Origin: Niveispirillum irakense DSM 11586
GTDB taxonomy: Bacteria; Pseudomonadota; Alphaproteobacteria; Azospirillales; Azospirillaceae
Assembly (NCBI RefSeq): GCF_000429645.1
Contig: NZ_AUCG01000023.1
Location: 310,001 to 374,000, forward strand
DNA: 64,000 nucleotides
Reading direction: 5' to 3'
A program made the position numbers and the translations under genes. Shown piece by piece: positions 39,774 to 43,323 of the stretch. How positions within the stretch are numbered: position 1 is the first letter of the stretch; every line of letters begins with the position of its first letter. The notes below the pieces were generated by a model. It was not told the origin of the DNA. It saw only the letters and a program-made list of their open reading frames with translations, and searched no databases.

Positions 39774-40270
39774 CGACACCGCCGCCATCACCGCCGCCCC
39801 TGCTCCGGCTGGAGGATTTCGTCCCCTACCGGCTGTCCGTCACCGCCAATCTGGTCAGCGATGTGATCGCATCGGCCTATGAAGCGCGTTTCGGGCTGAA
39901 GGTGGCGGAATGGCGGCTGGTCGCCGTGCTGGCGGAGGACGGCCCACAGACCCAGCAATCCATCGGCCAGCGGACCCGGATGGACAAGGTAACGGTCAGC
40001 CGCGCCGCCATCGCCCTCTGTGACCGTGCCCTGCTGGAGCGGCGTGACAATCCCCAGGACAAACGGTCCCATCTTTTGGTGCTGACAGAAGCAGGCATCC
40101 GTCTTTATGAAGAAGTGGCCCCCGTTGCCCTGTCCCTGGAAAAAGAGTTGCTGTCCGGGATCGGGCCTGCGGAGATGGATGCCTTAATGGCGATGCTGAA
40201 ACGGCTTGAACAGGCAGCCCTGACAGTAGGAACCGGCCTGATGGCCGACGCGGATGGAGACGGGAATTGA
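39770..40270 (+). CDS. MarR-family regulator of the homogentisate operon
   Basis: ATG 39770 overlaps the fahA stop. The 166-residue protein has a winged helix with recognition region IGQRTRMDKVTVSRAAIALCDRALLERRDNPQDKRS (read in parts) and dimerising helices on both sides. MarR proteins bind short palindromes and release on binding an aromatic ligand. Its place inside the operon suggests it controls the hmgA promoter, probably in response to homogentisate. The N-terminus is proline-rich. Confidence 0.9.
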   Translation: MTTPPPSPPPLLRLEDFVPYRLSVTANLVSDVIASAYEARFGLKVAEWRLVAVLAEDGPQTQQSIGQRTRMDKVTVSRAAIALCDRALLERRDNPQDKRSHLLVLTEAGIRLYEEVAPVALSLEKELLSGIGPAEMDALMAMLKRLEQAALTVGTGLMADADGDGN

Positions 40271-40887
40271 GCGATGATCACATCTATGAACCGTCCGCCG
40301 GCCATGGGCTGCCCCATGATCCGTTGAATGCCATTATCGCCCCGCGTCCGATCGGCTGGATTTCCAGCCAGAGCAAGGCCGGTATCCGCAATCTGGCCCC
40401 TTACAGCTTTTTCAACGCCTTCAACTACCGCCCCCCCATCATCGGCTTTGCCAGTACGGGCTGGAAGGACAGCGTCGCCAATATCCAGGAGACTGGGGAG
40501 TTCGTCTGGAATCTGGCGACCCGTTCCCTGGCAGAGGCGATGAATGAAAGTGCGGCTGTCGTCGCGTCAGAGGTGGACGAATTCGCCCTTGCCGGCTTAA
40601 CGCCAGCCCCATCGCAGCGCGTGGCCCCGCCGCGCGTGGCCGAAAGCCCGGTCAGCTTTGAATGCCGTCTCACCCAACTGATCCGGCTGCAGAATGCCAA
40701 TGGCAGTGAACTGGATACATGGCTGGTTCTGGGGGAAGTGGTGTTTGTCCGGATCGACCGGCGGCTGCTGACGGATGGTGTTTATGACACGGTAAAAGCC
40801 GATCCGATTCTGCGCGGGGGCGGCCCTACCGACTATTTCACCATCAGTGATGCACAACGATTCCACATGCGGCGACCGGGTGCTTGA
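40267..40887 (+). CDS. Flavin reductase-family protein (FMN-binding split barrel)
   Basis: TTG 40267 is the only start that fits, overlapping the MarR stop as TTGA. The 206-residue protein has the flavin-reductase-like split barrel (LNAIIAPRPIGWISSQSKAG near residue 20, then NYRPPIIGFASTG, FVWNLATRSLAEAMN). Proteins of this type often sit in homogentisate operons of proteobacteria, with a function that is not firmly known. It may supply reduced flavin or bind FMN or another ligand itself. The rare TTG start implies lower translation than the upstream genes unless coupled. Confidence 0.85.
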   Translation: MSDDHIYEPSAGHGLPHDPLNAIIAPRPIGWISSQSKAGIRNLAPYSFFNAFNYRPPIIGFASTGWKDSVANIQETGEFVWNLATRSLAEAMNESAAVVASEVDEFALAGLTPAPSQRVAPPRVAESPVSFECRLTQLIRLQNANGSELDTWLVLGEVVFVRIDRRLLTDGVYDTVKADPILRGGGPTDYFTISDAQRFHMRRPGA

Positions 40888-41035
40888 GCCCTGAAAACGC
40901 AAAACAGAGTAAACGTTAAAGTAATAAGACAAGCCATGCACGCCGCGCAGGCTTGCCCCGGCAGTGCCCCCGGCTGGCGGAAAATCACCTGAGCAATTAT
41001 ATTACACCCATCTGCAACAACGATGGGGATCCATC

Positions 41036-41131
41036 ATGCGTTTCTTTTTCCTGCTTCCCATGCTGCGGCTCGGTGCTTTTTCTCCGTTCGCCGCTCCAGT
41101 TGTGAAGTCCCCGGCCAATCGCCGTGATTGA
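41036..41131 (+). CDS. 31-residue ORF in the agmatine deiminase leader (candidate leader peptide)
   Basis: ATG 41036 has GGGGA seven bases upstream. It encodes a short hydrophobic then basic peptide (MRFFFLLPMLRLGAFSPFAA, ending in SPANRRD). It lies in a 408-base gene-free stretch and is followed by two RNA hairpins, the second a strong intrinsic terminator, all before the agmatine deiminase gene. The arrangement resembles leader peptides that control arginine, ornithine or polyamine genes. Translation is not proven, and there is no homology that I recognise. Confidence 0.4.
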   Translation: MRFFFLLPMLRLGAFSPFAAPVVKSPANRRD

Positions 41132-41173
41132 GGCGACAGGGCCTGCTTCTTTTAGCAGTCTCCATTTTTCAGT

Positions 41174-41226
41174 CTGACCCAGATCCTATAAGCCGATTGC
41201 GGTTTTAGCATCGGCATGGTTGTCAG
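41174..41226 (+). ncRNA. Structured hairpin in the agmatine deiminase leader
   Basis: CTGACCCA (41174-41181) pairs with TGG...GTCAG (41217-41226, two-base bulge). An inner stem pairs CCGAT (41193-41197) with ATCGG (41210-41214), and GC/GC pairs extend it. The hairpin sits just 5' of the terminator at 41232-41265. Together they look like the aptamer-plus-terminator or sRNA 3'-end arrangement. No known riboswitch class was recognised. Confidence 0.4.
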
Positions 41227-41230
41227 GAAC

Positions 41231-41265
41231 ACGCCCCGGCGATTACCTTCGCCGGGGCGTTTTTT
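41231..41265 (+). terminator. Strong intrinsic terminator 31 bases before the agmatine deiminase start
   Basis: CGCCCCGGCG (41232-41241) and CGCCGGGGCG (41250-41259) form a perfect 10-bp stem with an eight-base loop, extended by an A-T pair and followed by six T residues. It ends 30 bases before ATG 41296. No promoter-like element is visible in that gap, so the deiminase transcript must read through it (attenuation) or be nearly leaderless. GCCCCGGC also occurs at 40955-40962 and could compete for the 3' arm. Confidence 0.9.
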
Positions 41266-41295
41266 GTGCGCCGTCACATGACAGGATCTGGGCCG

Positions 41296-42321
41296 ATGAC
41301 CACACCCTTTGCCGATGGTTTCCGCATGCCCGCGGAATGGGCGCCGCACGCGCGCTGCTGGATGGCGTGGCCGGTCCGCGCCGAGACCTTTCCCAACGGG
41401 CTGGATGCCGCCCGCGCCGCCTATGCCGAGGTTGCGAAGGCTATTGCCCAGTTCGAGCCGGTGACCATGCTCTGCCCCGATGGCGGGCTGGCGGAGGTCA
41501 GCCTGGCCTGCGGCAAGGGCGTCAATGTCGTCCCCATGCCCACGAGCGACAGTTGGGTGCGCGACAATGGCCCCAGCTTCGTCGTGAACGATGCCGGTGA
41601 CGTGGCGGGCGTGCATTGGGGGTTCAACGCCTGGGGCCGCAATTACGATGATTTCCAGCTTGATACCGAAGTCGGGCGCCTGATCCTGGAACAGCAAGGG
41701 CTGAAGCGCTATGGCGCGCCCCTGGTGATGGAGGGCGGCTCCTTCCATGTCGATGGTGAAGGCACGCTGCTGACGACGGAGGAATGCCTGCTGAACCCCA
41801 ACCGCAACCCCCATCTGACACGGACGGAGATTGAAGGCCATCTGCGAGATTACCTGGGCGTTCGGGAAATCATCTGGCTGGGCCAGGGCTATGAGCAGGA
41901 TGAAACCGACGGCCATATTGACGAGATCGCCTGCTTCGTAAAGCCGGGCGTGGTGCTGACCATGGTGACGGATGATAAATCCGACCCGAACTATCCCGTC
42001 TTTCAGGACAATCTCGCCCGTCTGGCGGCCGCCCGTGACGCGGCGGGCCACGCGCTGGAGGTGGTGACCCTGCGCACGCCCGCCCGTCAGGAGCAGGATG
42101 GCGTGCGCCTCACCCTTTCCTACACCAATTTCTACATGGCCAATGGCGGCATCGTAATGCCGTTCTTTGAAGACCCGATGGATGAGGAAGCCTTGCGCAC
42201 CTTCCGCAAGCTGTTCCCCGAGCGTAAAGTGGTGCCCGTGCCGGCCCTGGATATTGTGCGCGGTGGCGGCGGCATCCATTGCATCACCCAGCAGCAGCCG
42301 GCCGGCCCGCAGCAGGGCTGA
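41296..42321 (+). CDS. aguA: Agmatine deiminase
   Basis: ATG 41296 (MTTPFADGFRMPAEWAPH) is preferred over GTG 41266 because that lies on the terminator edge; AGGA is upstream. The 341-residue protein is a peptidyl-arginine-deiminase-type enzyme. Substrate-binding regions are TSDSWVRDNGPSFV and GWNxWG-like NAWGRNYDDF. MEGGSFHVDGEGTLLTTEEC and the DGHIDEIACF histidine region follow. The nucleophile is the Cys in GGGGIHCITQQQP (about residue 329). It converts agmatine to N-carbamoylputrescine and ammonia for putrescine synthesis or agmatine use. The partner amidohydrolase aguB is not in the window. Expression may depend on readthrough of the terminator. Confidence 0.92.
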   Translation: MTTPFADGFRMPAEWAPHARCWMAWPVRAETFPNGLDAARAAYAEVAKAIAQFEPVTMLCPDGGLAEVSLACGKGVNVVPMPTSDSWVRDNGPSFVVNDAGDVAGVHWGFNAWGRNYDDFQLDTEVGRLILEQQGLKRYGAPLVMEGGSFHVDGEGTLLTTEECLLNPNRNPHLTRTEIEGHLRDYLGVREIIWLGQGYEQDETDGHIDEIACFVKPGVVLTMVTDDKSDPNYPVFQDNLARLAAARDAAGHALEVVTLRTPARQEQDGVRLTLSYTNFYMANGGIVMPFFEDPMDEEALRTFRKLFPERKVVPVPALDIVRGGGGIHCITQQQPAGPQQG

Positions 42322-42381
42322 ACCAGTCCCTTTCCCTTTGATCCGTGCCTAACAGAACCCAGAACCGGGAGTAGTTATCAG

Positions 42382-43323
42382 ATGAGCGACATGGCCCTGC
42401 CCCCCGCCGACCGCGTGGCGGTGGAACTGTTAACCGTGCGCGATTTCGTCCGCTATGCCGTCAGTCGCTTCAACCGGGCCGGTCTGGTCCATGGTCACGG
42501 GGCCGTCACCGCCTATGACGAGGCCGTGTTCCTGGTCCTGGAAACGCTGAAGCTGCCGGTGGACCAGTTGGAGCCCTATCTCGACGCCCGCCTGATGCCC
42601 GGCGAGCGGCATGCCCTGGCCGAGATCATCAATCTGCGCGTCACCAGCCGCAAGCCGGCCGCCTATCTGACCAAGCGCACCTATATCCAGGGCGTGCCCT
42701 TCTATATTGATGAAAGGGTGATCGTGCCGCGCTCCTTCATCGGAGAGCTGCTGTTTGGCGAGCTGTTCGGCGGTGAACAGGACTTCACCCTGGTGGATGA
42801 TGTAACGGACGTGGAATCCGTGCTGGATCTCTGCACCGGGTCCGGCTGTCTGGCCATTCTGGCCGCCAGTATCTTCCCGCTGGCCACAGTCGATGCCGTT
42901 GACCTGTCGCCCGATGCGCTGGAAGTGGCGAAGATCAATGTCGCCGACCACGGTCTGGAAGATCGGGTGAAGCTGTATCATGGCGACCTGTTCAAGCCGC
43001 TGAAGGGCAAGAAATACGACCTGATCATCTCCAACCCGCCCTATGTCGATGCCGAGGCGATGGAGAACCTGCCGCCGGAATATCAGGCGGAACCGACCAT
43101 GGCCCTGGTCGGCGGCGGTGCCGACGGGATGGATATTGTTCACCGTATCCTGAAGGAAGCCCCGAAATACCTGACCAACGATGGCGGACTGCTGGTTGAA
43201 GTCGGCACCGGCCGCGCCGCCCTGGAAGAAGCCTATCCGGACGCGGACTTCCTGTGGCTGGAAACCGAACTGAGCTTTGGCGAGGTTTTCTGGATCACCC
43301 GCCAGCAATTGCTGACGCTTTGA
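42382..43323 (+). CDS. prmB: Ribosomal protein L3 glutamine N5-methyltransferase
   Basis: The 313-residue enzyme has the PrmB/HemK layout: an N-terminal helical domain (RYAVSRFNRAGLVHGHGA), DERVIVPRSFIGELL, SAM motif I VLDLCTGSGCLAILAA and the catalytic NPPYVDAEAM near residue 217. PrmB methylates a glutamine of ribosomal protein L3 during 50S assembly. RSFIGELL and PRS distinguish it from PrmC. It follows aguA by 60 bases on the same strand and may be co-transcribed. Ordinary housekeeping gene. Confidence 0.93.
   Translation: MSDMALPPADRVAVELLTVRDFVRYAVSRFNRAGLVHGHGAVTAYDEAVFLVLETLKLPVDQLEPYLDARLMPGERHALAEIINLRVTSRKPAAYLTKRTYIQGVPFYIDERVIVPRSFIGELLFGELFGGEQDFTLVDDVTDVESVLDLCTGSGCLAILAASIFPLATVDAVDLSPDALEVAKINVADHGLEDRVKLYHGDLFKPLKGKKYDLIISNPPYVDAEAMENLPPEYQAEPTMALVGGGADGMDIVHRILKEAPKYLTNDGGLLVEVGTGRAALEEAYPDADFLWLETELSFGEVFWITRQQLLTL

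Follow-up and report, generated by a model that had tools for sequence, protein, structure and literature searches.

How is the agmatine deiminase gene aguA transcribed in Niveispirillum irakense DSM 11586, where a structured gap of 408 bases precedes it and a terminator ends 30 bases before its start codon? A first-pass annotation of this DNA, a stretch of 64,000 nucleotides referred to here as the window (contig NZ_AUCG01000023.1, positions 310,001 to 374,000), read the gap as a conditional leader. As stated, that model makes an upstream promoter, P1, the sole promoter of aguA and the terminator a switch controlled by a metabolite or a peptide. The gene occupies 41296–42321 of the window (this and all features below are on the plus strand unless noted) and matches the TIGR03380 equivalog model at 392.3 bits against a cut-off of 381.8. 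Its product is 92% identical to AguA of Niveispirillum sp. SYP-B3756. The ATG at 41296 was taken as the start rather than the GTG at 41266 of the mechanical ORF list, because the matches in relatives begin at the ATG.

A DNA search with the leader gave matches in 14 of 59 genomes, its own included, each upstream of aguA and on the same strand. The conserved blocks in the alignment, A1, are a palindrome, a TATATT box, the 5′ UTR, a small ORF, its stop region, a U-rich stretch, a hairpin (H1), the element GGTTGTCA and the terminator. The segment 41150–41310 also folds far better than its shuffles (z = −6.3). In addition, the 1 kb upstream of aguA was inspected in 68 genomes of the family Azospirillaceae, 28 of them picked for a prior leader or peptide match. 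These were sorted into groups, of which g1 includes Niveispirillum, Oleisolibacter and Aerophototrophica, g2 includes Nitrospirillum and g12 includes Azospirillum. One family genome, G018, holds five agmatine-deiminase-like matches on contigs C374, C14 and C128, three of them on a single contig.

The small ORF (41036–41131, 31 codons, MRFFFLLPMLRLGAFSPFAAPVVKSPANRRD) is preceded by a purine-rich GGGGA, so both the ORF and the ribosome site described by the first-pass annotation are present, and the ORF is kept upstream of aguA in relatives. Its conservation has the signature of coding sequence. Among 37 distinct N-terminal 48-mers, frame 0 carries 3326 synonymous and 3697 non-synonymous codon differences, compared with 762 and 5779 in frame 1 and 195 and 6425 in frame 2. 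Arg11 occurs in all 37 of these and is written with six codons; the triplet Arg11-Leu12-Gly13 is invariant and its distance from the start is fixed. Judged by this conservation at the amino-acid level, 41036–41131 is a real, unannotated small-peptide gene. Three annotated Azospirillum records list no gene before aguA in their (incomplete) tables, yet the ORF is present in each. The 47 ORFs found in the inspected regions encode peptides of 30–45 aa and start with ATG (34), GTG (11) or TTG (2).

Two profiles were used to count the peptide in the family. The broader one, A3, matched 60 of 82 Azospirillaceae genomes (E up to 0.01), which is the unbiased count, and the narrower one, A2, matched 28 of 82 (E up to 0.001). 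The best A3 match precedes aguA in the same orientation in all 60 genomes, as checked from coordinates in 59 and, for G086, from its locus, L039. Every one of these matches has an E-value of 5e-5 or better, and 58, with G086 counted, are within 500 nt of aguA; among the 59 placed by coordinates, 57 are that close and two are at 744 nt (G001) and 1221 nt (G074). Two further weak A3 matches (E 0.003) fall inside open frames of 299 and 274 aa. By group, the ORF is in 47 of the 68 inspected regions (g1, 11/11; g3, g10 and g13, 1/1 each; g8, 5/5; g12, 28/31) and was not found in the 7 regions of g2 or the 11 of g4–g7, g9 and g11. G095, the sole family genome of 81 that gave no aguA match (E ≤ 1e-30), is also without the small ORF.

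Beyond the family, a peptide class search that scored part of the first-look candidates (up to 28 per genome) had matches in 5 of 289 genomes, three of them family members; the other two matches (E 2e-4 and 4e-4) belong to open frames 527 and 80 aa long. A second search, again scoring part of these candidates (up to 19 per genome), had matches in 5 of 385 genomes, all family members. We also found 69 aguA loci in named genomes and inspected 49, of which 34 carry non-family titles or contigs; these 34 showed no leader-like ORF, only one chance R-x-G frame (L123), and two of them (L119 and L135) contain matches resembling P2, the candidate aguA promoter described below. These searches weakly suggest that the peptide is absent outside Azospirillaceae.

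Comparison of the ORF-bearing leaders points to a candidate promoter, P1, for this gene (TGGCGG-N17-TATATT, 40975–41003). A −10 box of the form TAnnnT stands 37–39 nt 5′ of the ORF start in 47 of 47 leaders, a raw count taken without a shuffle background, and a TGGC-type −35 is seen by eye in most g1 and g12 rows. Further 5′ is a palindrome-like ATGC-N7-GCA (40936–40950, no strand assigned), a possible regulator-binding site whose T-N11-A form we take to be LysR-like. It occurs 93–105 nt 5′ of the ORF start in 20 of the 47 leaders, namely all 19 outside g12 (g1, 11/11; g3; g10; g13; g8, 5/5) and one g12 leader (L071), and the pattern is absent from the other 27 of 28 in g12. Directly 3′ of P1, in the 5′ UTR (~41010–41035), a CATC-N2-CAACA block is nearly unchanged between Niveispirillum and Azospirillum and keeps a near-constant spacing to the ORF start codon.

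The intrinsic terminator lies at 41231–41265, with a stem at 41231–41260 followed by a T run. It is present where the first-pass annotation had placed it, but its stem has 12 pairs, 10 of them G-C, and not 10 pairs. Terminator-like sites are not rare in this DNA, as 40000–42600 contains three against 2.1 expected in shuffles; the aguA-proximal one has by far the longest stem. In the alignment (15 rows, 14 genomes), 98.3% of the cells of this stem are paired, which carries the structure through the window's genus and its nearest relatives. A scan of the interval from the ORF to aguA for stems with a T tract succeeded in 18 of 47 leaders, 11/11 in g1 and 7/28 in g12, where the scored terminators are a different hairpin, upstream of P2. 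It found none in g3, g10, g13 or the five g8 leaders; in g3, g10 and g13 the stem itself is retained, but the T tracts are poorer. The scored terminator is thus firm only in the window's genus, and support for a closed unit from P1 to the terminator is limited to g1.

A second promoter-like element occupies the same DNA as the terminator. The candidate aguA promoter P2 (TTGTCA-N18-TACCTT, 41220–41249) has its −35, TTGTCA, at 41220–41225 and its −10, TACCTT, at 41244–41249, within the terminator loop. Of the 68 family upstream regions, 60 contain the pattern TTG[TC]CA-N17-19-TAnnnT no more than 200 nt from aguA, where shuffles predict 0.07; the rows are related, and the pattern was set after the sequences were seen. 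It also occurs in genera without the ORF (g2, 5/7; g4, 1/1; g6, 5/5; g11, 1/1). The eight regions without it belong to g2 (two), g5 (two), g7, g9, g8 (one) and g12 (one), and by eye those of g8 and g12 come close to matching. In the 3′ module of the Niveispirillum type, GGTTGTCA and the loop TA do not vary across the 15 rows (14 genomes), and in g8 an inverted repeat, by eye, overlaps the place of P2 too. A strict scan of 40000–42600 for E. coli-type sigma-70 promoters reported none at all, neither P1 nor P2 included. From the comparative patterns we infer that both are active promoters; P2 would then start aguA transcription near 41256–41259.

This arrangement changes the answer given before. 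The first-pass annotation saw no promoter between the terminator and aguA, and the gap itself indeed has none, but the conserved, promoter-like P2 straddles the terminator. The start that it implies falls just before 41266–41296, the interval in which a transcription start had been named as evidence against the conditional leader. The inference that aguA needs readthrough of the terminator is probably wrong, given that P2 is found family-wide, ORF-less genera included, that the terminator is stable, and that insertions described below leave P2 with aguA. For the same reasons, the model of P1 as sole aguA promoter with a switchable terminator is scarcely credible, even though the leader is structured and the terminator as close to aguA as that model had it.

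The reading that we favor, with somewhat better than even confidence, is that the Niveispirillum clade carries two transcription units here: a stand-alone peptide mini-gene beside aguA, with its terminator fused to the aguA promoter. In the first unit, P1 would give a transcript of ~250 nt that starts near 41010, ends at 41231–41265 and encodes the 31-codon conserved peptide, with its invariant R11-L12-G13 and an Arg-Arg near the end. The ends of this mini-gene would be its own, P1 by comparison and the terminator in the 18 of 47 leaders, including all 11 of g1, in which it was scored. In the second unit, aguA would be transcribed from P2, its −35 just before the terminator and its −10 in the loop, with a message starting near 41257. 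Because terminator and promoter share DNA, polymerases from P1 would stop on top of P2, and P1 activity would be expected to lower the use of P2 by transcriptional interference. The peptide may be a small product acting in arginine or polyamine metabolism. The first-pass annotation's own alternative, a separate short RNA ending at the terminator, fits better than its conditional leader, although the RNA would be a small mRNA that encodes a conserved peptide.

Several features of the locus point the other way, as they are those expected of a regulatory leader: a hairpin at the stop codon, the hairpin H1 and the RRD-stop end of many peptides. The stop-codon hairpin (TCGCC-[GTGATTGA]-GGCGA, 41119–41136), found by folding ORF ends, holds the stop codon in its loop. 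It reaches −5.5 kcal/mol or lower in 29 of 35 distinct ORF ends, whose sequences are related; stops of long open frames, taken as controls, do so less often (5 of 77 in the window, 57 of 228 from the upstream regions), and against shuffled 3′ flanks only 10 of the 35 ends reach p ≤ 0.05. H1 (GCCGAT...ATCGGC, core 41192–41215) is the second upstream hairpin of the first-pass annotation and is likewise confirmed. In the 15 rows, 85.7% of its cells are paired and three of its seven pairs are changed on both sides. Both H1 and the terminator hairpin are thus kept upstream of aguA in relatives. In a shuffle control, 0 of 500 shuffles reached the observed number of paired cells, of cells changed on both sides, or the covariation score; for the count of changed pairs, 57 did so, and for the count of pair types, 337. 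RNAalifold gives a small covariation term (−0.88). RR occurs within the last 26 residues of 46 of 47 peptides, although genomes rich in G+C may often have Arg-rich peptide ends, and RRD-stop is the common end of g1 and most g8 peptides.

These features would suit leader-peptide control on the P1 branch, a reading that we regard as a tentative second possibility. In response to arginine, agmatine or a polyamine, a ribosome would pause at Arg-Arg or the stop codon and thereby prevent the stop-codon hairpin and raise readthrough, which would add to basal transcription from P2. The conserved H1, the stop codon in its hairpin loop, the Arg-Arg and RRD-stop ends and the transporter genes upstream of the locus in relatives are in keeping with it, as are the two consecutive Arg codons that Salmonella orf34 uses, according to the available part of PMC6386406. 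Folding argues against it. In 10 of the 14 leaders that have this stem, we placed a ribosome at RLG, RR or the stop codon, blocked the bases up to it, and computed equilibrium rather than co-transcriptional structures. The terminator paired with a probability of 0.95–1.00 in 10 of 10 leaders at every ribosome position and without a ribosome, so no ribosome-driven antitermination is predicted. No conserved antiterminator was found by eye. Moreover, g12 peptides end differently from those of g1 and g8, and G002, in which the 5′ arm of H1 is by eye missing, carries ~106 inserted nt between the ORF and the terminator.

Two specific pairings were considered and set aside. One is an antiterminator between the ORF end and the terminator, of 8 bp in the window (AATCGCCG/CGGCGATT); in most relatives it is, as judged by eye, shortened or interrupted by mismatches, and folding left the terminator closed in the 10 leaders. 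The other is a perfect inverted repeat of 10 bp (41178–41187/41283–41292), which dominates the fold of the long transcript. It would sequester the aguA ribosome site by pairing it with the leader, but the relatives in A1 do not, by eye, preserve it. An attenuator is expected to have a short ORF between promoter and terminator, no promoter after it, and a terminator that switches with ribosome position. A short ORF with coding conservation and predicted translation does lie between the P1 −10 and the g1 terminator. Across the family, the P2 pattern is present before aguA in 60 of 68 upstream regions, and no switching was seen in silico in 10 of 10 leaders. A leader attenuator thus fails two defining tests in silico, while a regulatory role in cis may exist. 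One such role, which we consider quite unlikely, is a fused switch in which ~46 bp serve as both leader terminator and aguA core promoter. Translation of the peptide, sensing arginine or a polyamine at RLG or at the RR-stop, would decide whether polymerases from P1 block P2 or clear it and feed aguA.

The genomic neighborhood bears on whether the peptide works next to aguA or elsewhere. Of the 68 genomes, 45 have a permease gene, PotI-like as we take it, in the 1 kb upstream; all 45 are among the 57 outside the window's genus, and none is in g1. In two records the permease gene sits behind a gene labelled as a polyamine ABC transporter, which together with the permease suggests a polyamine-related locus. 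Among nine g1 loci with 1.7–2 kb of upstream sequence, only Oleisolibacter albus still has the PotI-like gene; in the window's genome the closest homologue (83%) is on another contig. In Azospirillum lipoferum 4B the ORF precedes aguA and the stretch covered has no PotI-like match. Niveispirillum thus keeps the pair of ORF and aguA though the PotI-like gene is not upstream, which hints at a role in cis that a stand-alone peptide would not need.

In two genomes the ORF unit has come apart from aguA, which speaks against leader-peptide control. The intervening gene in Azospirillum sp. RU38E (G001; L003, 1400–2480) is on the same strand, is acetyltransferase-like (GNAT by eye), and has a copy of the H1/P2/terminator module on either side. 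In A. halopraeferens (G074; L116, 682–2001) they are parted by a reverse-strand open frame of ~1 kb, presumably akin to family-61 glycosyltransferases; the ORF, the P1 box and P2 all persist despite the separation. P2 remains with aguA in both genomes.

Survival of the ORF unit away from aguA in G074 is also what would be expected if the product were a trans-acting small protein or a dual-function sRNA acting elsewhere, near aguA merely by inherited synteny. Such a transcript would have its own candidate promoter, a terminator in g1 and conservation at the amino-acid level, and its 3′ part has hairpins and a U-rich stretch (TTCTTTT, 41147–41153, kept by eye in most A1 rows) that we read as resembling those of many sRNAs. 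We judge this explanation unlikely, since all 60 profile matches are upstream of aguA, 58 of them within 500 nt, and Niveispirillum has kept the pair without the PotI-like gene upstream. Nor did Pfam, NCBIfam or PHROGs give a match for three representative peptides, and Rfam 15 gave nothing above the gathering score at the locus. A known RNA family for the leader was dropped on these grounds, the best local match, Spot_42, being far below threshold (24 bits against 80). The only Rfam match above threshold in the window is the bacterial small SRP RNA (RF00169; 48396–48493, minus strand).

Known systems offer partial parallels. The likeness to speFL drawn by the first-pass annotation holds at most for function: like speFL/orf34 of speF in Salmonella and E. 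coli, the locus has a short ORF 5′ of a putrescine-pathway gene and consecutive Arg codons, as far as the accessible part of PMC6386406 describes them. There, stalling of ribosomes immediately ahead of the stop codon influences both Rho and the RNA structure (PMC7815308, available part). In the window, by contrast, the terminator is intrinsic and not melted in silico by a ribosome, aguA has its own candidate promoter, and the enzyme is another one. The leader peptide is, to our knowledge, unrelated to SpeFL, whose system is marked by ornithine-dependent ribosome arrest and Rho control. An alphaproteobacterial precedent for an attenuator-derived short transcript that is a small mRNA or dual-function sRNA is rnTrpL/peTrpL of Sinorhizobium meliloti (PMC10117765, in the part accessible). 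However, peTrpL is a leaderless 14-aa peptide in a trp attenuator, whereas the aguA-leader peptide has 30–45 aa, a ribosome site, an inferred 5′ UTR of ~25 nt and no run of Trp codons. In arrest peptides of the TnaC type, too, a small leader ORF contains conserved residues and its translation is what is sensed (PMC8429421 and PMC10941005, available parts). The aguA-leader peptide differs in being invariant at RLG 11–13 across genera and variable by clade at its end, and arrest would be hypothetical. The mdtU uORF of mdtJI in E. coli is polyamine-related and acts with premature termination, according to the accessible part of PMC7815308, but is Rho-dependent and most conserved at the C-terminus, whereas the aguA leader has an intrinsic terminator and mainly N-terminal conservation.

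In the literature searched, which left most subscription journals outside, we found no report on this locus and none on an overlapping promoter and terminator; the available main text of a paper on A. brasilense sRNAs contains neither 'agmatine' nor 'aguA'. For the reading of bacterial leaders, the locus illustrates that a strong terminator directly before a gene does not prove attenuation. A terminator loop that holds a candidate −10 would offer a well-defined natural example in which to study how one piece of DNA serves both termination and initiation. For Azospirillum and its relatives, the conserved peptide family adds to the short ORFs tied to polyamine genes.
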